This document shows, piece by piece, positions 30,502 to 40,089 of a stretch of 64,000 nt of DNA; position 1 is the first letter of the stretch; the number at the start of each line of letters is the position of its first letter. The stretch covers positions 496,001-560,000 of the forward strand of contig NZ_QNUJ01000001.1 in assembly GCF_003574625.1 (NCBI RefSeq), read 5' to 3'. The notes under the pieces were generated by a model. The model ran no database searches and was not told the origin of the DNA. It saw nothing but the letters and a program-made list of their open reading frames with translations. A program made the position numbers and the translations under genes. The stretch comes from Shinella zoogloeoides (GTDB taxonomy: Bacteria > Pseudomonadota > Alphaproteobacteria > Rhizobiales > Rhizobiaceae).

Positions 30502-31866
30502 CTATGCGTGGTTAAACTGAAGATCAGCTTGCAGCCCGTTGTCGGTTTCCCGGTTCCGCAACGCAAAGCCTATGCGATAGGCATCGACGATTTCGCGGAC
30601 GATGGAGAGACCGAAACCCGAGCCGGGTGATGCCGTGTCGAGACGCCAGCCTCGGCGGGTGAGATTGTCGAGTTCCTGCTCCGGCACGCCTGGGCCATCG
30701 TCCGAGATTGTGAGATGCAAGCTGGTTTCATCGCGCCACCAGCGGACGTGGATCTCGGCCTTTGCCCATTTGACGGCATTTTCGAGCAGGTTGCCGATGA
30801 GCTCGCGAAAGTCGGCTGGGTCCATGGCCACGGTCTCGGTGCTTGGGCCGTCGATCTCGAACCGCAGCCGCTCGCCGGATGGGGAGCGCTTGAGGATGCG
30901 CACGAGCTCGCCGACGATCATGGCGACGTCGGCATCCGAGCGGCGCAGTTGCGCGCTGGCGGTGATGCGGGCGAGCGCCAGCTCGCGTTCCACGTGGTTG
31001 CGCATGACGGATGCCAGATGCTCCAGTTCGTCCGCCATGGCGGTATTTCCCTTGTCGCGCAGGGTCACGGCGTCGTTCGAGAGCACAGTCAGCGGCGTGC
31101 GCAGGCCGTGGGCGAGGTCGGCCGCGCGCTTCCTCGCCTTGCCCATCATCGCTTCCTGCGTATCCAGAAGCGCATTGACTGCCGCCACGGTGCTCTGGAA
31201 TTCGCTAGGATAGGGGCCGGTCAACTGGCTGGCACGCCGCTCGCGGATGCGCACGATCCCTTCGTTCAGCGCCGCCAGCGGCCGCAGCCCGAGGGTGAGC
31301 TGCAGGATCGACGCGACGACGAGGAAGGCGCCGAGCCCGGCGACGGCCGGCAAGATGTCGCGGATGAAAGCGGTCCTGGCCTCCTCCAGCGTGCGCGCGT
31401 CGATGGCGGCCGCGATGCGCAGCGCGCGTGTCCCCTCTGGTGCGGCGACCCGCACGAGCCGTTCGAGGACGATCAGCGAACTTCCGGCTGGGCCGGGCAG
31501 CAGGTAGCGATGGACCGCGCCCTCGGCGTGCTGGTCCGCAGGCAAGGCGAGGGCCGTGTCGAACAGCGAGAGCGAACGGATGGTCTGCCCCCGCGCATCG
31601 TCGACGATCTGCCAGTAGAGCCCGCCATAGGGCGTGGCGAAGCGCTGGTCGAGCGGACTTTCCGGGCGCTGGAGCGTGCCGTCGGCGGCAAAGGACAGCG
31701 CGCCGGCCAGCGTGTTGATATGGCTGGTCAGCTCCGCGTCGATGCGATTGCTGATGTTGCTCGAGAAGAGCGAGACCAGCAAGGTGACGGTCAGCGTCAG
31801 CGCGAGGCTCACCGTCAACGCGGAAATCAGCAGGAGGCGGCTGCGAATGGAGGCGGGCCATCTCAT
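30502..31866 (-). CDS. Two-component sensor histidine kinase (PhoQ/QseC-like architecture)
   Basis: 454 residues: membrane segment ~10-33, periplasmic loop ~34-170, second membrane segment ~171-192, a HAMP-like linker, then the dimerisation histidine H253 in DLAHGLRTPLTVLSND. The HATPase domain follows, with the N box (LIGNLLENAVKWAK), G1 (ISDDGPGVP) and G2 (GSGFGLSIVREIVDAY). The start overlaps the response regulator stop by ATGA, and a PepSY gene precedes that, so transcription runs PepSY - regulator - kinase. Similar trios respond to metals, cationic peptides or envelope stress; the signal is not readable here. Confidence 0.92.
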   Translation of the reverse strand: MRWPASIRSRLLLISALTVSLALTLTVTLLVSLFSSNISNRIDAELTSHINTLAGALSFAADGTLQRPESPLDQRFATPYGGLYWQIVDDARGQTIRSLSLFDTALALPADQHAEGAVHRYLLPGPAGSSLIVLERLVRVAAPEGTRALRIAAAIDARTLEEARTAFIRDILPAVAGLGAFLVVASILQLTLGLRPLAALNEGIVRIRERRASQLTGPYPSEFQSTVAAVNALLDTQEAMMGKARKRAADLAHGLRTPLTVLSNDAVTLRDKGNTAMADELEHLASVMRNHVERELALARITASAQLRRSDADVAMIVGELVRILKRSPSGERLRFEIDGPSTETVAMDPADFRELIGNLLENAVKWAKAEIHVRWWRDETSLHLTISDDGPGVPEQELDNLTRRGWRLDTASPGSGFGLSIVREIVDAYRIGFALRNRETDNGLQADLQFNHA

Positions 31867-32525
31867 GCGGCGGCGATCCGATAGCCGTAGCCGCGGCGCG
31901 TCTCGATGAAGGCCTTTCCCAGCTTACGCCGCAGCCGGCCGATCAGCACCTCCACCGAGTTGCTGTCGCGGTCGAAATCTTGGGCATAGAGCTGCTCGGT
32001 TAGTTCCTGCTGGCTGACATAGCGCTCGCGGTTCTGGAACAGATGGTGCAGGCAGCGATATTCGAGCGGCGTCAGGTCGATCGGACGGTCCCGGAGCGTC
32101 ACGGATTTGCTGCGCGGATCGAGATGCAGGTCGCCGGCACTGAGCACCGGGCTCGGCTCGCCAGCATAGCGGCGCAGGATAGCGCGCAGGCGGGCGAGGA
32201 CTTCCGCGATCTGGAAGGGCTTGGCGAGGTAGTCGTCCGCCCCGGCGTCGATGCCTTCCACGCGCTCTTCCCAGTTGCCGCGCGCCGTTAGGATGAGGAC
32301 GGGGAAGCGGCGCCCGTCCTTGCGCCAGCGCTTCAGGATAGTCATGCCGTCCATGGAAGGCAGGCCGAGATCGAGAATGACGGCGGCGAAATCCTCGCTC
32401 TCACCGCGATACCAACCGTCTTCGCCGTCGCGGGCATGGTCCACGACATAACCCGCCCGCTCCAGATGGGCGATGAGATCGCGGGCGATCAGCCGGTCGT
32501 CTTCGACGAGCAGTATGCGCATCAT
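31863..32525 (-). CDS. OmpR-family response regulator
   Basis: 220 residues: receiver domain with acidic pocket EDD, phospho-acceptor D52 in ILDLGLPSMDG, and the switch lysine in ADDYLAKPF. The C-terminal winged helix includes LTPLEYRCLHHLFQNRERYVSQQEL and VEVLIGRLRRKLG. The ATG overlaps the PepSY stop (32522-32525), so the three genes are translationally coupled. A direct repeat TCAGCCA with 11-base spacing and a GCTGAC/GTCAGC inverted repeat in the divergent promoter (32888-32919) fit binding by an OmpR-type dimer and suggest control of both directions. Confidence 0.93.
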   Translation of the reverse strand: MMRILLVEDDRLIARDLIAHLERAGYVVDHARDGEDGWYRGESEDFAAVILDLGLPSMDGMTILKRWRKDGRRFPVLILTARGNWEERVEGIDAGADDYLAKPFQIAEVLARLRAILRRYAGEPSPVLSAGDLHLDPRSKSVTLRDRPIDLTPLEYRCLHHLFQNRERYVSQQELTEQLYAQDFDRDSNSVEVLIGRLRRKLGKAFIETRRGYGYRIAAA

Positions 32526-32919: not shown

Positions 32920-32983
32920 CGGTTGCCTATGGTGCGTCCAGCGTCGGGGCAGGGTGCTCCGGCCGGCCACAAGGAGAAATTCC

Positions 32984-33262
32984 ATGAAGACATTCCTTCT
33001 CGCAACCGCCCTTCTGGGCTTGTTCGCCGCCGGTGCGGCCCGCGCCGAAGATGAAGGCAAGGGTTGCAACGTGCCGAAGGACAAGTGGATGACCGAGGAC
33101 GCCATGAAGGACAAGGCCAAGGCGATGGGCTTCGACGTCCGGCGGATAAAGGTCGAGAACGGCTGCTACGAAGTCTATGCGATCGACGCCAAGGGCGCCA
33201 AGGTCGAGACAATCTTCAATCCGCAGACCGGCGAGCCCGTCGGCTCGGAAGGAGCGGAATGA
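32984..33262 (+). CDS. Small exported PepSY-domain protein
   Basis: 92 residues from ATG 32984, preceded by AAGGAG (32971-32976). A signal peptide (KTFLLATALLGLFAAGAARA) is followed by a short PepSY-like domain: WMTEDAMKDKAKAMGFDVRR, IKVENGCYEVYAIDAKGAKV and ETIFNPQTGEPV. Two cysteines (in KGCNVP and NGCYEV) could form a disulfide. It is coupled by ATGA to a cytochrome b561 gene; such PepSY/b561 pairs are common in Rhizobiales and are often controlled by the neighbouring two-component system. Confidence 0.86.
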   Translation: MKTFLLATALLGLFAAGAARAEDEGKGCNVPKDKWMTEDAMKDKAKAMGFDVRRIKVENGCYEVYAIDAKGAKVETIFNPQTGEPVGSEGAE

Positions 33263-33813
33263 TGGCGCCGCTCTCCCGAACCAGTGGGGCGGGGGAAAGC
33301 GTCAAGGTGTGGGACCCGCTCGTGCGGGTCTTTCACTGGTCGCTGGTCTGCCTCTTCGTTTTTTCCTTCGTTACCGGCGACGAATGGAAGAAGGCTCATA
33401 TCCTTTCCGGCTATGCTATCGCCGGGCTGATCGCCTTGCGCCTTGCCTGGGGGCTGCTGGGGCCACATCACGCACGCTTCGCCAACTTCCTCTACGCCCC
33501 CACGACGATTCTAGCGTTCCTCCGTGACAGCCTCGCCTTCCGCGCCAAACGGTATCTCGGCCACAATCCGGCGGGTGGCGCTATGGTCGTCCTGCTGCTC
33601 ACTGCGGTGTCCGGCATCGTGACCACCGGTTATATGATGACCACGGATGCCTATTGGGGGGTCGGCTGGGTGGAGGATGTCCACAAGGTCCTTGTCTATT
33701 CGACCATCGGGCTGGTCGCCCTGCATATCGCTGGCGTTGTTCTAGCCAGCGTCGAGCACCGGGAAAACCTCGTGCGTGCCATGGTGACGGGAAGAAAGCG
33801 CCGCGAAGGTTGA
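33259..33813 (+). CDS. Cytochrome b561 family protein
   Basis: 184-residue membrane cytochrome with four predicted membrane helices. Candidate haem-ligand histidines sit in VFHWSLV, KKAHILSGYA, DVHKVLVYS and VALHIAGVV, matching the two-haem layout of the CybB-like family. The family transfers electrons from quinol to a periplasmic acceptor; here the co-transcribed PepSY protein could be the partner or regulator. The start overlaps the PepSY stop by ATGA. The segment WDPLVRVFHWSLV is typical of bacterial b561 proteins paired with small periplasmic proteins. Confidence 0.9.
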   Translation: MMAPLSRTSGAGESVKVWDPLVRVFHWSLVCLFVFSFVTGDEWKKAHILSGYAIAGLIALRLAWGLLGPHHARFANFLYAPTTILAFLRDSLAFRAKRYLGHNPAGGAMVVLLLTAVSGIVTTGYMMTTDAYWGVGWVEDVHKVLVYSTIGLVALHIAGVVLASVEHRENLVRAMVTGRKRREG

Positions 33814-33837
33814 TGTGCGGTTGTCTATATGGCACCA

Positions 33838-33854
33838 TTTAGAATAGTTCTAAA
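33838..33854. promoter_or_regulatory. ICE / Irr box (iron control element)
   Basis: TTTAGAATAGTTCTAAA is a perfect 7-base inverted repeat around three bases and matches the known ICE consensus of the Irr regulator in Rhizobiales and Rhodobacterales (TTTAGAA-N3-TTCTAAA). It lies 57 bases before the ATG of the VIT-family transporter gene, with the P1B-type ATPase two bases after that gene. Irr is stable in low iron and typically represses iron-storage, iron-use and iron-export genes then. The prediction is therefore that both transporters are switched on when iron is plentiful. Confidence 0.83.
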
Positions 33855-33910
33855 TAAATAGCCTGACGTCATCATGCAACCACAGTCGATCTGCTGAAAT
33901 CGGAGATGCC

Positions 33911-34606
33911 ATGCGCGCCGTCCACAAGGAAAGCCACCTCATCGAACGTATCGGCTGGCTCCGCGCGGCGGTGCTGGGTGCCAATGACGGGCTGATCTCG
34001 ACGTCGAGCCTCATCGTCGGTGTCGCGGCGGCGACCGCGGCATCGCAGGAAATCCTCGTCGCTGGTGTCGCCGGGTTGGTGGCTGGTGCGATGTCGATGG
34101 CGGCAGGGGAATATGTCTCCGTCAGCTCCCAGGCCGATACGGAACAGGCCGACATGGCGCGTGAGCGTCACGAGCTGGCCACCCAGCCGGAGGCGGAGCT
34201 GGCAGAACTCGCCGCAATCTACGAGCAGCGCGGTGTCGCGCCGGATCTTGCCCGCCAGGTCGCCGAACAAATGATGGCGAAGGACGCCTTCGAAGCTCAT
34301 GCACGGGACGAACTTGGCCTGTCGAGCCACGTAATGGCGCGGCCTGTCCAGGCGGCGCTGACGTCGGCGGCGACATTCGCGACGGGCGCGGCCCTGCCGC
34401 TGGCGGTCGCCCTGCTGACGCCGTCGGGAACGGCCGTCTGGGCTGTGTCCGTTGCCTGTCTCATCGGGCTTGCCGTCCTCGGCGCGATCGGCGCGCGTGC
34501 CGGCGGTGCTGGCATCTGGCGGCCGACTGTCCGGGTCGTTTTCTGGGGCGCGGTCGCCATGGCGTCGACGGCGGCCATTGGCACCCTCATCGGCCGGGCG
34601 ATCTGA
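33911..34606 (+). CDS. VIT1/CCC1-family Fe2+/Mn2+ transporter
   Basis: 231-residue membrane protein of the vacuolar iron transporter family. GWLRAAVLGANDGLISTSSLIVGVAAA and the loop AAGEYVSVSSQADTEQADMARER are diagnostic; the second contains metal-binding acidic residues of the cytoplasmic helix. The C-terminal part adds three more membrane segments. There is no N-terminal ferritin-like domain, so it is not an MbfA-type protein, although MbfA is the better known Irr-controlled VIT protein in Rhizobiales. With the Irr box upstream and a metal-efflux ATPase downstream, export of excess Fe(II) is the most economical role; manganese is an alternative. Confidence 0.9.
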   Translation: MRAVHKESHLIERIGWLRAAVLGANDGLISTSSLIVGVAAATAASQEILVAGVAGLVAGAMSMAAGEYVSVSSQADTEQADMARERHELATQPEAELAELAAIYEQRGVAPDLARQVAEQMMAKDAFEAHARDELGLSSHVMARPVQAALTSAATFATGAALPLAVALLTPSGTAVWAVSVACLIGLAVLGAIGARAGGAGIWRPTVRVVFWGAVAMASTAAIGTLIGRAI

Positions 34607-34608
34607 TC

Positions 34609-36585
34609 ATGAAACGTCTGTCGTTCGATACGCCGACGATGATGTCGCTGCTGACGGTGCTGGGCATGATCCTCGCCGCGGCCGGAACCTGGCCGCCGGT
34701 CGAGGGGCTTGCCGTTCTGCGCTGGCCCGGGCTGGCGCTCGTCTATGTCGCTGGTGGGGTGCCGGCCACGGGGAGCGCGCTTTTGGCCCTGTGGCGAGAG
34801 CATGTCCTGGACATCGATCTCTTGATGGTGGTCGCGGCAGTCGCGGCCGCAGTTGTCGGCGCGCCGTTCGAAGGCGCCGTGCTGCTGACGCTGTTCAGCG
34901 TATCGACGACGCTCGAGCATCAGGCGCTCGGACGTGCGCGCCGCGCCGTCGAGGCGCTGATGGCGTTGCGCCCCGAAACGGCGTTCCGCAGGCAGGCCGA
35001 TGGCTCTGTCCTGGAAGTTCCCGCGGCGGAGCTGGCTGTTGGGGATGTGGTGATCCTGCGGCCCGGCGCTCGCGTGCCGGCCGATGGCGTCATCCTGCGG
35101 GGGCGCGGCGGCATCGATGAAGCCAATATCACCGGCGAATCCATGCCGGTCTCCAAGGAGGCGGGCCAGCAGGTGTTCGAGGCCACGGTCAATCTGGACG
35201 GCATTCTGGAGGTCGCGGTCGCAAGAACGATCGGTGACAGCACGATCGCCCGCATGATCCGGCTGGTCACGGAGGCCCAGGAGGCCAAGGCTCCATCCGA
35301 GCGTTTCAGCGCCTGGTTCGGGCAGCGCTATACTGTCGCCGTCCTTCTGGGCGCAGCTCTCGCCTTCGCTGTTTTCTATGGGATCGGGCGCGATTGGGAG
35401 CCGGCGCTCTATCGCGCTGCGACCCTGCTGGTCGCGGCCAGCCCCTGCGCGATCGTCATATCGGTGCCCGCGGCGATCCTATCGGCACTCTCGGCGGCCG
35501 CGCGGGGCGGCGTGTTGTTCAAGGGCGGCGGCGCGCTTGAAACGCTGGCCGCCGTTGATGTCTTCGCCTTCGACAAGACAGGCACGCTCACCAACGGCCG
35601 GGCGGCCGTGACGCGGATCGTCGCGTTGGACGGGGACGAACGCGGCTTCCTGTCGCTGCTGGCCGGGCTCGAAGCCCATTCCGAGCATCACGTCGCCGCG
35701 GCGATCCGCCGGGAGGCGGCCGCGCGGGATATAGAGCCGGCGCGTGTCGCGGATGTCAGCGCTCGCCCGAGCGCCGGAATCGTCGGCACGGATGCGCTTG
35801 GCGTGCTCTGGGCTGGAAACCTCCATCTCGTCCGAGACATGGGGGCTTCTGTCGACCGTATTCAGCTTCAGGAACTCACCGACAGTGCCGAAACCGTCGT
35901 CTATCTGGGGCGTGGAGAAAACATCCTCGGCGCCGTCAGCGTGGCGGACGAGGCGCGGGCAAGCTCTGCCCCGGCGCTTGCGGCCCTGCGCGCCGACGGC
36001 GTGCGCCGCATCGTCATGATGACCGGTGACCGTCGGTCGGTGGCGTTGCGGATCGGCGCGGGGCTCGGCCTCGCTCCCGATGAGATTCATGCCGAAATGC
36101 TACCGCAGGACAAAGTGCTCCATGTGGGGGAACTGGCGGGCGGCGGCACCGTGGCCTTCGTCGGCGACGGCGTCAACGACGCGGCCGCTCTTGCCCGCGC
36201 CGATGTCGGCATCGCCATGGGGGCGGCCGGCTCGGAGGTCGCCCTTCAGGCGGCCGATGTGGCTCTGCTGTCGGAAGACATGAAGAAATTGGCCGATGCG
36301 CACCGGCTGGCGCGCCGGACCGCGGCGGTCATCCGGCAGAACCTTGTCGTCGCGATCGGTGCCATGCTGGTGCTGGTGACGGGCGGATTATTCTTCGATC
36401 TGCCGTTGCCACTAGCAGTGGTTGGACATGAAGGCGGGACCGTGCTCGTGGTCCTCAACGGCCTGCGCCTGTTGTCGGACCCGATCCGGTGGCCTGTGGA
36501 CGCGAGCAGATTCTCCCGTCCTTCAGGGGAGCGGCCGATGGCGGCGCCCACTTCGGCCGCATCGCCCGCCGATGGGCCGGTGTAA
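34609..36585 (+). CDS. P1B-4-type heavy-metal efflux ATPase (Co/Fe subgroup)
   Basis: 658 residues, no N-terminal heavy-metal-binding domain. Landmarks: TGES (175-178), SPC (278-280) in the metal-binding membrane helix, phosphorylation DKTGTLT (D322), GDGVNDAAALARADVGIAMG, and HEGGT (607-611) in the last helix. SPC together with HEGGT is the signature of subgroup P1B-4, whose members export Co(II) and/or Fe(II). The nucleotide-domain dipeptide, usually SEHP, reads SEHH here. A proline-rich tail of about 25 residues ends the protein. The gene lies 2 bases after the VIT gene behind an Irr box, which favours iron as the physiological metal. Confidence 0.92.
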   Translation: MKRLSFDTPTMMSLLTVLGMILAAAGTWPPVEGLAVLRWPGLALVYVAGGVPATGSALLALWREHVLDIDLLMVVAAVAAAVVGAPFEGAVLLTLFSVSTTLEHQALGRARRAVEALMALRPETAFRRQADGSVLEVPAAELAVGDVVILRPGARVPADGVILRGRGGIDEANITGESMPVSKEAGQQVFEATVNLDGILEVAVARTIGDSTIARMIRLVTEAQEAKAPSERFSAWFGQRYTVAVLLGAALAFAVFYGIGRDWEPALYRAATLLVAASPCAIVISVPAAILSALSAAARGGVLFKGGGALETLAAVDVFAFDKTGTLTNGRAAVTRIVALDGDERGFLSLLAGLEAHSEHHVAAAIRREAAARDIEPARVADVSARPSAGIVGTDALGVLWAGNLHLVRDMGASVDRIQLQELTDSAETVVYLGRGENILGAVSVADEARASSAPALAALRADGVRRIVMMTGDRRSVALRIGAGLGLAPDEIHAEMLPQDKVLHVGELAGGGTVAFVGDGVNDAAALARADVGIAMGAAGSEVALQAADVALLSEDMKKLADAHRLARRTAAVIRQNLVVAIGAMLVLVTGGLFFDLPLPLAVVGHEGGTVLVVLNGLRLLSDPIRWPVDASRFSRPSGERPMAAPTSAASPADGPV

Positions 36586-36605
36586 GCGCCGGCCGCGCCC
36601 AATGG

Positions 36606-37331
36606 TCAGCAGGACAGGAAGCGATTGCGGGTATTCTCATCGAGAAGCAGCCGCGTGATGCCGCCGAAAGCCCATTCCCGCAGGCGGCTATGGCCATAGG
36701 CACCGGTGACGATGATATCTGCATCGCTCGCGTCGATGACTTGTAGGAAGCCGATTGTTTCGTCGGCGCTTTTGATCATCTGCGGCCTCGCTTTCACATT
36801 ATGCTGGGCGAGATAGGTGACGATCTCGGTGAGACTCTGTATCTCGGCTGGTGTGGGCTCCGGGGAAACAGACACGACGGCAACATCATAGGCGACGGAG
36901 AGCAGGGGAAGCGCATCCGCGATTGCGCGGCGGGCTTCACGGGTGTCTTTCCAGCCGACGACGATCTTTCTTGCCGGAAGCGCGTGCTGGCCGCTTCGGA
37001 TCACCAGCAGGGGACGTCCTGCGCGCAGCACGACGGTTGCCGGGTCCGCCCGGTTTCCGGCCGCCATCAGAACGAGATCGGCGATGCGGGCGGCGGTCAC
37101 GACCGCCTCGGTCGGCGTCGTCGCTTCCCCGCGCCATTCGGCCTCGATCCGGTTTGCCGCCAGATGAAGGAACGCGGCGCGAATCTCCTCCGCGTGCTTC
37201 TTGGGCGTTTCGGTGGCGCAAAGCCCGATGAGCCGTGCACCCGAGCGGGACGCCAGATCGATTGCGGCGCGCATGATCGGCTCAGCGGGCTGGTCGATAT
37301 CGAGATTGACCAGAATGGATCGATAAGCCAT
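36606..37331 (-). CDS. Universal stress protein, UspA family (tandem domains)
   Basis: 241 residues from ATG 37331, holding a degenerate first Usp domain and a complete second one ending TGAYGHSRLREWAFGGITR, the G-2x-G-9x-G(S/T) nucleotide-binding pattern of Usp proteins. YRSILVNLDID at the start is the usual first strand. A FixK/FNR-type box is centred 68 bases before the start. The adjacent phosphotransacetylase and acetate kinase genes form the same low-oxygen set seen in many Proteobacteria. The gene is convergent with the P-type ATPase operon. Confidence 0.9.
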   Translation of the reverse strand: MAYRSILVNLDIDQPAEPIMRAAIDLASRSGARLIGLCATETPKKHAEEIRAAFLHLAANRIEAEWRGEATTPTEAVVTAARIADLVLMAAGNRADPATVVLRAGRPLLVIRSGQHALPARKIVVGWKDTREARRAIADALPLLSVAYDVAVVSVSPEPTPAEIQSLTEIVTYLAQHNVKARPQMIKSADETIGFLQVIDASDADIIVTGAYGHSRLREWAFGGITRLLLDENTRNRFLSC

Positions 37332-37392
37332 GTGTGCATTCCTCCGTTCAAGGCAAGTGTCGAAGAGCATAATGCCGATCGCGAAGCACATA

Positions 37393-37406
37393 TTGACCTC
37401 GGTCAA
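37393..37406. promoter_or_regulatory. FixK/FnrN anaerobox upstream of the universal stress gene
   Basis: TTGACCTCGGTCAA is a perfect TTGAC-N4-GTCAA palindrome, matching the anaerobox TTGA(T/C)-N4-(A/G)TCAA bound by FNR, FnrN and FixK. Its centre is 68 bases upstream of the stress-protein ATG, compatible with a class II position (-41.5) if transcription starts about 27 bases before the ATG. Confidence 0.75.
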
Positions 37407-37452
37407 AATATCGCGTGGCGCATCGCCAATCGATTTTTAGGCCTTCGTGCCG

Positions 37453-37466
37453 TTGACCGAAATCAA
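37453..37466. promoter_or_regulatory. Second anaerobox, facing the decayed DUF465 gene
   Basis: TTGACCGAAATCAA fits TTGA(T/C)-N4-(A/G)TCAA in all ten fixed positions. Its centre lies about 61 bases before ATG 37521 of the DUF465 relic and about 60 bases from the first box, so the divergent pair probably once had one box each. The box is still intact although the gene is broken. Confidence 0.66.
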
Positions 37467-37520
37467 CGCCTGAAACAAAGTCCTCCGAATTCTGCCATGA
37501 TGATTGTTACGGAGGCAGAT

Positions 37521-37759
37521 ATGTCGAACACACTCCACACTTTGGCGAAGAATTTCGTGGCCAGGCGGATTGAATCCGTGTCCTGAAGGTCGCCGATCCG
37601 GCTTTTGCTGACCTACTGGGGGACTACGACGCGGTGAACGACAACATTCATCTCGCGGTGATGAATGTCGCTCCGGTCGGGCAGGGTCATGAGATGATGC
37701 GCCGCAAACAGCGCCTCGCCATCGAAGACCGGATCATGGAAGCGCTTCAAGGCGCCTGA
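37521..37759 (+). pseudogene. DUF465/YdcH-like small protein gene, frameshifted and with a nonsense codon
   Basis: A GGAGG site precedes ATG 37521, which reads MSNTLHTLAKNF and then stops at 37584 in the wrong frame. In a shifted frame the sequence continues IRVLKVADPAFADLLGDYDA, VNDNIHLAV and RRKQRLAIEDRIMEAL to TGA 37757. The layout matches DUF465 proteins of Rhizobiales (short helical proteins of about 75 residues). Restoring it needs one inserted base near the TTCGTGG at 37554-37560 and conversion of TGA 37571-37573 to a sense codon, CGA giving the expected Arg. A sequencing error could explain one change, hardly both. Confidence 0.7.
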
Positions 37760-37786
37760 CGTTCAGCCGGCAGAGGGCGAGACCGG

Positions 37787-38902
37787 TCAGCCGCGCCGTC
37801 CCGCTTCCAGCAGCGCCTTGCCGTGGATCGCAAGCATGCGCTCCTCATTCGTCGGGATGATCAAGGTCTGGAACGGCGGTAGGAACTTCAGCCGGACGAG
37901 GATCGCATCCCGAACCGGCCCCGCGTTTTCCCCGACCCCCCCGGTAAAGACGAAGGCGTCGAGTCCACCCATGGACACAGCCATCATCGCCGTGAACTGC
38001 GCTACCTTCAGGGCAAAATAGTCGAGGGCGAAGCCGGCTCTTGAATCCGTGCTTTCGAGCAAGGTCTTCACGTCGTTGCTGAGGCCGGACAGACCCTTCA
38101 GGCCGGATCGTTCGTAAAGTGCGTGTTCTACCTCGTCAGCGCTCATGCCGAGCTGACGCAGCATGTAGGTAACTGCGCCGGGATCGATTGCGCCGGTGCG
38201 GCTTCCCATCGGTAGACCGTCGAGCGCGGTCATGCCCATCGTCGTGTCGACGCTGATGCCGTCCCTGAGGGCGCACAGGCTCGCGCCGTTGCCGAGATGC
38301 CCCACCACGACCCGGCCGCGTGCGAGATCGGGATGTTCGCTTGCAAGCACACGGGAAATCCACTCGTAGGACAGCCCATGGAAGCCATAACGGCGGATGC
38401 CTTGGGCCCGTAGCGAGGCATCGACCGCAAAAGCCTGGAAAAGCGGCGCATGGCCGGCATGAAAGGCGGTATCGAAACAAGCGATATCCGGGGCGTCCGA
38501 GAGGCGGTCCGAAGCTGCGATGCCCGCAAGGTTGTAGGGCTGGTGCAATGGCGCGAGCGGCGCTAGCGCCGCAAGCCGCCGCAGGATTTGGGGCGTGACG
38601 ATGACGGGCGCGACGAAATCGGCGCCGCCATGCACGATTCGGTGTACCGTCGCCACCATGCGCCAGGCATCGTCGTACCGGTCGATGAGATCGATCACCG
38701 CGCCCATGGCGGTCTCGTGGTCGTTGGCGGCAAGCGCCCTGTCGATATGAACGTCGCCCGCCGTAATTGTCGCGCTCAGTCTTGCCTCGGTGCCTATGCC
38801 GGTGACCTTGCCCTTGGCAAGCTTGTCGAGCGCATCGTATCCGAAGATCTCGAATTTCAGGCTCGAGGACCCCGTATTGAGAACGAGCAATACATTCATC
38901 AT
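37787..38902 (-). CDS. ackA: Acetate kinase
   Basis: 371 residues, slightly shorter than the ~400 of many acetate kinases. The family landmarks are LVLNTGSSSLKFEIF at the start, FDTAFHAGHAPLFQAF, RRYGFHGLSYEWISRVL, GHLGNGASLCALRDGISVDT, MGSRTGAIDPG and FTGGVGENAGPVRDAI. It makes ATP from acetyl phosphate (reversible). ATG 38902 overlaps the stop of the phosphotransacetylase gene by ATGA, so the two are translationally coupled in the order pta-ackA. Three FNR-type boxes in this block support use under low oxygen. Confidence 0.95.
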   Translation of the reverse strand: MMNVLLVLNTGSSSLKFEIFGYDALDKLAKGKVTGIGTEARLSATITAGDVHIDRALAANDHETAMGAVIDLIDRYDDAWRMVATVHRIVHGGADFVAPVIVTPQILRRLAALAPLAPLHQPYNLAGIAASDRLSDAPDIACFDTAFHAGHAPLFQAFAVDASLRAQGIRRYGFHGLSYEWISRVLASEHPDLARGRVVVGHLGNGASLCALRDGISVDTTMGMTALDGLPMGSRTGAIDPGAVTYMLRQLGMSADEVEHALYERSGLKGLSGLSNDVKTLLESTDSRAGFALDYFALKVAQFTAMMAVSMGGLDAFVFTGGVGENAGPVRDAILVRLKFLPPFQTLIIPTNEERMLAIHGKALLEAGRRG

Positions 38903-39828
38903 TTGATGCGGCCTTTGGCGCGGGCATCCGCGAGCAGGCAGGCAAGGGCGGAGGACAATAGGCGTGTGCGCTGGTCGTCGGCCCGGCTCGTCAGGACGAT
39001 GGGAACACGGGCGCCCAGCACGATACCGGCCGCCTCCGCCCCGCCGAGGAACGTGAGCTGCTTTGCCAGCATGTTGCCGGCTTCGATATCGGGAACGAGA
39101 AGGATGTCGGCATCGCCGGCGACAGCCGACACGATGCCTTTCTCCCGCGCCGCCTGCGGGCTGATCGCATTGTCGAAGGCAAGGGGACCGTCGATCAGGC
39201 AGCCGGTTATCTGCCGGCGGTCCGCCATCTTGCAGAGCGCGGCTGCGTCCAGGGTCGCTTGCATCTTGGGATTGACTGTTTCCACCGCCGCGAGAATGGC
39301 GACCTTCGGTGGTCGCGCCTCGCCAAACACCACGCACCAGAGATCAACGGCGTTCTGGATGATATCGGCCTTCACTGGAAGATCGGGCAGGATATTAACG
39401 GCGGCGTCGGTAATCATGAACGGCTTCGGATAGGAAGCGATGCTCATGAGGTAACAATGGGAGATGCGCCGCTCCGTGCGCAGCCCGGCGCCGGCCTTCA
39501 CGATCTCGCCCAGAAGTTCGTCCGTGTGCAGCGAGCCCTTCATGATGGCGCTCACATTGCCACCCGCGGCCAGTTCCGCCGCCTTGGCCGCGGCCGCATG
39601 GCTATGCTCAGTGTTGACGATCTCCCACCCTGCTATATCAATCCCGGCCTCTCTGGCCGCCTCGGCTATCCGCGCCGCAGGCCCAATGAGCACCGGCGCG
39701 ATCAGGCCTTCCCGCATCGCCTCGAAACCGGCCGCAATCACGTTGGCCTTCACTGGATGCACGATCGCCGTACAGGTGGGCGGCAGCTTGCGGCAAAGGG
39801 CCAGAATCGCATCTGTCTGTCCACTCAT
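38899..39828 (-). CDS. pta: Phosphate acetyl/butyryltransferase
   Basis: 309 residues from ATG 39828, with AGGGGA as ribosome site. Typical of the short PTA/PTB enzymes: AGFEAMREGLIAPVLIGP, MKGSLHTDELL, RRISHCYLMSI, PFMITDAAVNILPDL, and the C-terminal DILLVPDIEAGNMLAKQLTF. It converts acetyl-CoA and phosphate to acetyl phosphate for the coupled acetate kinase; butyryl-CoA is a possible alternative substrate. There is no N-terminal DRTGG or MaoC-like domain. The upstream 440-base gap carries one anaerobox (40090-40103), 268 bases from the start, too far to be sure it acts here. Confidence 0.92.
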   Translation of the reverse strand: MSGQTDAILALCRKLPPTCTAIVHPVKANVIAAGFEAMREGLIAPVLIGPAARIAEAAREAGIDIAGWEIVNTEHSHAAAAKAAELAAGGNVSAIMKGSLHTDELLGEIVKAGAGLRTERRISHCYLMSIASYPKPFMITDAAVNILPDLPVKADIIQNAVDLWCVVFGEARPPKVAILAAVETVNPKMQATLDAAALCKMADRRQITGCLIDGPLAFDNAISPQAAREKGIVSAVAGDADILLVPDIEAGNMLAKQLTFLGGAEAAGIVLGARVPIVLTSRADDQRTRLLSSALACLLADARAKGRIK

Positions 39829-40089
39829 CGCACGTTCCCCTAGCGCCTTATGTAAAGTTGTGGATGAGCAATCTTCACGATGGTCCGACCCTAGGCAAGA
39901 GGCCTTTTCCCTTAAGGCGCCCACTGCTGCACAGCGACGTTTGGTGGAGTTTGCACCGAGTGTTCGAGGCTTTCGATGGGAAAACGTATTGAGATCAACG
40001 GTCGCTCGATTTTTCCTATTTCTCAATTCGGCGTAGGAGGAATATATATTTTCATGTCGAAATTGATATTCGTAAATAAAAAAATCATT

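Follow-up and report, generated by a model that had tools for sequence, protein, structure and literature searches.

In a 64,000-nucleotide stretch of the Shinella zoogloeoides genome (contig NZ_QNUJ01000001.1, positions 496,001 to 560,000; hereafter the window), a gene for a VIT-family transporter is followed directly by a gene for a P1B-4-type metal ATPase, and a perfect palindrome of the type recognized by the regulator Irr (an Irr box, or iron control element, ICE) stands upstream of the two. Our data show that the box and the gene pair travel together across genomes. In our best reading, to which we assign a probability of roughly two in three, the pair is a two-gene iron-detoxification operon that is controlled by the Irr of its host and has spread horizontally, mainly among alphaproteobacteria.

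The Irr box and its association with the gene pair

The box, TTTAGAATAGTTCTAAA, is the sole site with at most two mismatches to TTTAGAA-N3-TTCTAAA in the window, and none of 100 shuffles gave one. The first-pass annotation, made from the letters of the window alone, had recognized this perfect palindrome correctly and placed it 57 bases before the VIT gene; the gap to the start codon is in fact 56 bases. It had also described the two-gene layout as we find it, with the ATPase start codon two bases past the VIT stop codon. Since the cytochrome b561-type gene on the 5' side runs in the same direction and ends at 33813, the only gene that the box can serve is the VIT gene downstream.

A scan of the whole genome (5,375,062 bases), with the reversed pattern as a control, uncovered two exact sites and four with one mismatch, and the control gave none. 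From the base composition of the window (62.7% G+C), 0.0009 exact sites, 0.054 sites with at most one mismatch and 1.4 with at most two are expected. At two mismatches, nine genome sites face four in the reversed control, so that this level is noisy and single sites say little; the three extra sites lie before a ccpA-like di-haem peroxidase gene, 5' of a bfd-like gene, and at a place without a clear target. All 6 of the sites with at most one mismatch are found by iron, haem or iron-sulfur genes or by the pair itself (Table 1; C3:67462 is flanked by another gene too), with gene names, apart from the VIT part of MbfA, taken from our reading of the translations. On these genome-wide counts, 6 sites against 0.05 expected, a chance palindrome was rejected.

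The genome also encodes three Fur-family proteins, one of which (L011:1420-1875) is Irr-like with an HHH motif (DHHHFF), and whose sequence blocks we take to identify it as Irr. An upstream box beyond chance expectation thus coincides with an Irr-like protein in the same genome, and control of the pair by Irr, which the first-pass annotation had proposed, now appears very probable. In Rhodobacter, Irr binds a TTAGAAATATTCTAGA site in gel shifts (PMC6956336), and in R. sphaeroides it was bound at mbfA and ccpA, with mbfA ~8-fold up in an irr mutant under iron limitation (PMC3413700).

Relatives of the VIT protein were searched in 84,980 species genomes, and the best 80 of 576 loci were kept. 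Among these best 80 loci (0.9 Mb), an SPC/HEGGT ATPase lies directly 3' of VIT in 5, all of them boxed (mismatches 0, 0, 0, 0 and 2), and 10 of the 11 sites with at most two mismatches are located 5' of VIT or of an ATPase-VIT pair. In all, 113 VIT genes from the 80 loci and the sampled genomes were scored, of which 110 had at least 200 bases upstream and 3 were dropped. With a pair defined as a P1B-4 ATPase of at least 70% identity right behind VIT, so that eight ATPases of 31-34% fall outside, a box with at most two mismatches precedes 11 of 12 VIT-P1B-4 pairs and 2 of 98 other VIT genes (L069 and L086). The Fisher value for box against pairing is 2e-12, uncorrected for kinship among loci that are not all independent: some, such as L019 and L063, are on the same contig or near-copies, and L046 and L126 hold an identical VIT. 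The box was likewise present in 6 of 6 plasmid loci checked, three of which are almost the same as the window or as another locus. Collectively, when all pairs are read together, a box with at most two mismatches precedes 17 of 18, near-copies included. Four distinct VITs of the same 84-95% clade that have no ATPase are box-less (L046, L048, L052 and L051, the last labelled Rhodanobacter, a gammaproteobacterium). Upstream DNA at the paired loci varies between groups, with the box retained; in Afipia and Ferrovibrio, two boxes stand 49 bases apart.

VIT genes were also found next to other ATPases. A distant ATPase with a TPC motif (~615 aa where read) follows VIT at L064, L086, L089, L090, L023, L030 and L032, the L086 pairing carrying a box with two mismatches, and at L062 a TPC ATPase precedes VIT. 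In Alsobacter soli (L096:4046-6693) the order is reversed, an ATPase without a CPC-type motif being followed directly by VIT, and a two-mismatch box stands 11 bases before the ATPase. The adjacency of VIT and P1B genes is hardly due to chance, because the Shinella genome encodes just nine P-type ATPase genes. That VIT is repeatedly paired with differing ATPases suggests a common task for the two kinds of exporter, one driven by a gradient and the other by ATP.

A further metal-transporter cluster behind Irr boxes was seen at L126:13073-15803 (genome G106), where two Irr-like boxes 51 bases apart precede mbfA, followed by an NRAMP/MntH-like gene (by eye) and then a broken VIT start.

Table 1. 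Features of the window and box sites elsewhere in the genome
Feature	Position	Strand	Basis or context
Candidate Irr box (ICE), perfect palindrome TTTAGAA-TAG-TTCTAAA	33838..33854	.	motif scan
VIT/CCC1-family transporter, 231 aa	33911..34606	+	PF01988, 6iu3 sequence match, AlphaFold, Foldseek
P1B-4-type metal ATPase, 658 aa	34609..36585	+	TIGR01525/TIGR01512, Pfam, solved relatives, aligned residues
PepSY_2 small protein, upstream; recurrent neighbour, unit membership uncertain	32954..33262	+	PF13670
Cytochrome b561-type membrane protein, just 5' of box; recurrent neighbour, unit membership uncertain	33259..33813	+	PF01292
Two-component system close to the pair	30502-32525		
Usp-family gene, then acetate kinase and phosphotransacetylase genes	36606-39840	opposite to pair	profile matches
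Site with the same 17 bases as the window box	C25:88406		14 bases before mbfA gene
Box site	C3:67462		110 bases before iscS-like/sufB run; alpha/beta-hydrolase-like gene 84 bases off on the other side
Box site	C23:328579		20 bases before hemH
Box site	C25:262340		before NifU-like gene
Box site	C26:268182		before Rrf2 gene resembling RirA

The VIT transporter and the P1B-4 ATPase

The VIT protein matches PF01988 at 231 bits (1.6e-68, above the cut-off) and the sequence of PDB entry 6iu3 (EgVIT1) at 2.5e-21. Its AlphaFold model (mean predicted local distance difference test score, pLDDT, 88) was matched by Foldseek to the EgVIT1 structures 6iu3 and 6iu4 with TM-scores of 0.73-0.77, and its helices are consistent with five transmembrane (TM) segments and a metal-binding domain on the cytosolic side. 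Pfam finds VIT1 only and no ferritin-like domain in the protein, and mbfA is a separate gene in the genome. The first-pass annotation was therefore right that this VIT lacks the ferritin-like domain of MbfA; what it did not mention is that the protein has a cytosolic metal-binding domain of its own.

When the alignment to 6iu3 is read against the residue list in PMC10794610, D26, M63, E85, E88, E96, E99 and E134 correspond to EgVIT1 D43, M80, E102, E105, E113, E116 and E153, and these seven metal-handling residues are invariant across 30 aligned VITs. At the other three of the ten named positions, EgVIT1 Met149, Met150 and Glu72 are replaced by H130, Ala131 and Gly55. In addition, R18 and E67 correspond to the salt-bridge pair of MtVTL8. 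We conclude that the protein belongs to the iron-type VITs and has, besides its cytosolic metal-binding domain, some VTL-like membrane features, and the metal that it moves is very likely iron or manganese; VIT homologues carry metal out of the cytosol (PMC10794610). H+ antiport can only be presumed, because Glu72, the proposed proton relay in EgVIT1, is a glycine here; MtVTL8 also has a glycine at this place, yet moves iron (PMC10794610). The proposal of two different exporter types in the first-pass annotation is supported.

The ATPase matches TIGR01525 at 552 bits, and TIGR01512 also scores above its cut-off. By the residue lists in PMC10800456 and PMC8880997, it has the P1B-4 set: SPC in TM4 (residues 278-280), HEGGT (607-611) as part of HEGGT-x5-N in TM6 (607-617), a TM1 methionine (Met20, in the first hydrophobic stretch) and an equivalent of sCoaT E120 (Glu88). 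The assignment of the TM1 methionine is a reading of an 18-row alignment in which Met20 is kept in 14 rows, including all 9 box-bearing ones; one row, L189, is a different ATPase and was disregarded. Pfam gave no match for an N-terminal metal-binding domain. The best solved relative is 7qbz (345 bits), with ZntA 4umv at 314 bits; 7qbz is presumably sCoaT, which fits residue H657.

The SPC and HEGGT motifs had led the first-pass annotation to name the P1B-4 class, and this assignment stands, but the motifs do not by themselves determine Fe(II) as the substrate. The substrates of the class are mixed, with Co, Zn and Cd also moved (PMC10800456, PMC8880997). PfeT, FrvA, CtpD and PmtA are P1B-4 pumps reported as iron exporters (PMC7762939), and the S. 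suis pump PmtA exports both Fe(II) and Co(II) (PMC7012047). For the ATPase of the window it is the company of VIT and the Irr box that points to Fe(II), and on this basis we lean towards Fe(II) as a substrate. The neighbours of VIT-less P1B-4 orthologues were also considered as a clue to the metal; they are mixed (chromate-transporter-like, and two LysR-like by eye) and not decisive.

Distribution, mobility and neighbouring genes

The first-pass annotation had suggested surveying whether the order of box, VIT and P1B-4 ATPase is conserved in Rhizobiales, and the survey shows that it is not. A close VIT (at least 87%) occurs in 4 of 199 sampled genomes of the family, and one of these holds three full-length VIT copies, of which two are accompanied by the ATPase. 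For the ATPase, close relatives (at least 66%) were present in 9 of 397 sampled genomes of the order, and only 3 of these 9 have VIT and box. The idea of a conserved Rhizobiales operon was rejected on this sporadic occurrence. In the plasmid collection, 13 records cover at least 80% of the query, some on replicons of more than 1 Mb: ten are from Shinella, and the others are from Agrobacterium pusense (a conjugative plasmid), Ensifer adhaerens and a record labelled Roseateles but flagged as unverified (6 of the 13 were read in detail). Positions 33820-36585 of the window are themselves 99.9% identical to the 1.89-Mb replicon NZ_CP131131.1 of Shinella zoogloeoides Teo12.

Rows from Rhizobiaceae, Nitrobacteraceae, Rhodospirillaceae and Rhodanobacteraceae fall into one 15-row group of the VIT tree, with a support of 93/96, just below the starred level of the program. 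Moreover, two loci (L128 and L131, genomes G075 and G106) hold decayed VIT-ATPase copies at the syntenic place of the window, in the order PepSY, cytochrome b561, perfect box, first 64 VIT residues and broken ATPase; an intact copy lies elsewhere in each genome, 15 kb away in one. Together, the sporadic occurrence, the plasmid records, the VIT tree and the decayed copies argue for horizontal spread. The VIT-ATPase pair is therefore a sporadic, accessory and often plasmid-borne unit and not a conserved Rhizobiales operon; this finding goes beyond the first-pass annotation and is new here, as is the observation that the box accompanies the pair.

As to the surroundings of the pair, it adjoins arsenic resistance genes at L183 and L188 (annotated) and L130 (by eye), and bigR/blh sulfur genes are near it at L183 and L188. 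Parts of the set made up of the PepSY_2, cytochrome b561-type and two-component genes recur beside the pair or a VIT at L045, L047, L049, L059, L126, L128 and L184, the set being incomplete at some loci, and it possibly has a linked redox function. Genes for a PepSY_TM-flavodoxin reductase, ApbE and DUF2271 lie close to the pair at L128:7421-11213, L184 and L190, and DUF2271 and PepSY genes adjoin a lone P1B-4 relative in Paracoccus too; these neighbours are a possible electron-transfer partner. On the other side of the pair, the Usp, acetate kinase and phosphotransacetylase genes make up a typical low-oxygen set.

An Rfam scan of 33500-36900 gave no match and the leader folds weakly (z +1.66), and riboswitch control was rejected on these grounds. 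None of the ten neighbouring proteins scanned with profiles is a one-component Co or Zn regulator, and the regulator of the two-component system scores below the cut-off with the PmrA, QseB and heavy-metal family profiles.

Proposed mechanism, alternatives and known systems

We infer Irr binding, the sign of the control, co-transcription, the metal and the cooperation of the two pumps as follows. In low iron, haem-free Irr would bind the single box and most likely shut the operon together with mbfA; once iron and haem are plentiful, Irr would let go and one message would yield both pumps. The cytosolic domain of VIT would bind Fe(II), and perhaps Mn(II), for outward transport driven by an ion gradient, and the ATPase would use ATP to export Fe(II) and probably also Co(II). 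Iron is the favoured metal because the ATPase is coupled to a VIT, because mbfA has the same Irr box, and because no known riboswitch was found and no one-component Co/Zn regulator among the ten neighbours scanned. The repressive sign is taken from mbfA, which is described as Irr-repressed in other species (PMC10374146, PMC3413700); repression in low iron does not follow from the box itself, because Irr can also activate, depending on box position (PMC7762939), and we consider repression rather than activation likely. As a more tentative idea, this plasmid-borne unit without its own regulator may carry an operator for the chromosomal Irr of the recipient, so that the haem and iron status of the host would switch the acquired pumps at once, with VIT and the P1B-4 ATPase acting consecutively or each at a different level of iron.

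Several observations weigh against an Irr-repressed iron-detoxification operon. One pair (L132, VIT 68%) has no box and an ATPase without the TM1 methionine, and for six other close P1B-4 orthologues (66-75%) neither a VIT nor a box lies within 1.5 kb. The VIT lacks the proton-relay glutamate, and the P1B-4 motifs fail to fix Fe(II), given that Co, Zn or Cd is also among the substrates of characterised members. Overexpression of the Brucella P1B-4 protein BOV_A1100, which has no TM1 methionine, gave only slight Co efflux, and its deletion gave no phenotype, FeCl2 included (PMC10800456). The promoter scan found no sigma-70-like promoter, and the two-component system could share control of the pair. 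As for Irr, it did not bind in vitro to the box predicted for the iscR (P2) promoter of Rhodobacter (PMC6956336), the authors of the R. sphaeroides study saw no major role for Irr in the mbfA iron response (PMC3413700), and in Brucella a P-type ATPase gene to which Irr binds shows lower, not higher, expression in an irr mutant (PMC10374146).

One alternative is a broad-range metal or cobalt efflux system, in which the ATPase would move mainly Co(II) (or Zn/Cd) and VIT Fe/Mn, and Irr would answer haem status and not iron surplus as such. The mixed substrates of P1B-4 pumps (PMC10800456, PMC8880997), with Fe(II) and Co(II) for PmtA (PMC7012047), fit such a system, as do a best solved relative discussed for zinc or cadmium (PMC8880997), plasmid copies adjoining arsenic and sulfide/sulfite genes, and lone ATPase orthologues in other settings. 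We nevertheless judge it unlikely, given the tight coupling of the ATPase to VIT and to a box shared with mbfA, the lack of a one-component Co/Zn regulator among the ten neighbours scanned and the lack of an Rfam riboswitch. Activation by Irr in low iron, with the pair serving manganese or iron redistribution instead of detoxification, would agree with the dependence of Irr on box position (PMC7762939) and with the Brucella ATPase gene (PMC10374146); it seems quite improbable when mbfA, a gene described as repressed by Irr elsewhere (PMC10374146, PMC3413700), carries the same 17 bases upstream in this genome, and when VIT homologues export metal from the cytosol (PMC10794610). A chance origin of the palindrome, or its use by another Fur-family protein (Mur or Zur) instead of Irr, finds some room in the two further Fur-family genes of the genome, but the number and company of the six sites and the retention of the box while its flanks change leave this idea hardly credible.

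Among known systems, the iron-detoxification operon proposed here resembles MbfA, the Irr-controlled exporter of Bradyrhizobium and Agrobacterium with ferritin-like and VIT domains: both have a VIT-type membrane part and an Irr box, identical over 17 bases in this genome, but the VIT of the pair has no ferritin-like domain, has its own metal-binding helices, is followed by an ATPase, and belongs to an accessory, often plasmid-borne unit. PfeT, FrvA, CtpD and PmtA share the P1B-4 class and the SPC and HEGGT motifs with our ATPase. Their regulator, where known, is Fur and/or PerR (PMC7762939), whereas the present pair has an Irr box and a VIT partner. With EgVIT1/CCC1, our VIT shares the fold and the cytosolic metal-binding glutamates, but it is a bacterial protein and differs in the residues at Met149, Met150 and Glu72 and in the MtVTL8-like Arg18/Glu67. 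The ATPase has S-P-C, H-E-G-x-T and the E120 equivalent in common with sCoaT (if 7qbz is indeed this protein), for which we know of no VIT or Irr link. In contrast to our reading of the ATPase, sCoaT is discussed for zinc or cadmium (PMC8880997). In Brucella, BME_RS10660 (called zntA) likewise encodes a P-type ATPase and has an ICE box to which Irr binds in gel shifts, but it lies beside hemN, with no VIT mentioned in the available text, and loss of irr lowers its expression (PMC10374146).

Among literature titles and abstract beginnings, we found no match for VIT, P1B-4 ATPase and Irr box in one mobile operon; the Irr regulon predictions of Rodionov et al. 2006 might mention it. An Irr-controlled VIT (MbfA) and P1B-4 iron export under Fur/PerR were already known. 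What is known of iron export in rhizobia comes mainly from MbfA, and the pair described here adds a second, mobile exporter pair that is likely under the regulator of MbfA and places a primary next to a secondary pump. It raises the questions of which metal the P1B-4 pumps of this clade move and whether mobile metal-resistance genes borrow the global regulator of the host instead of importing one.

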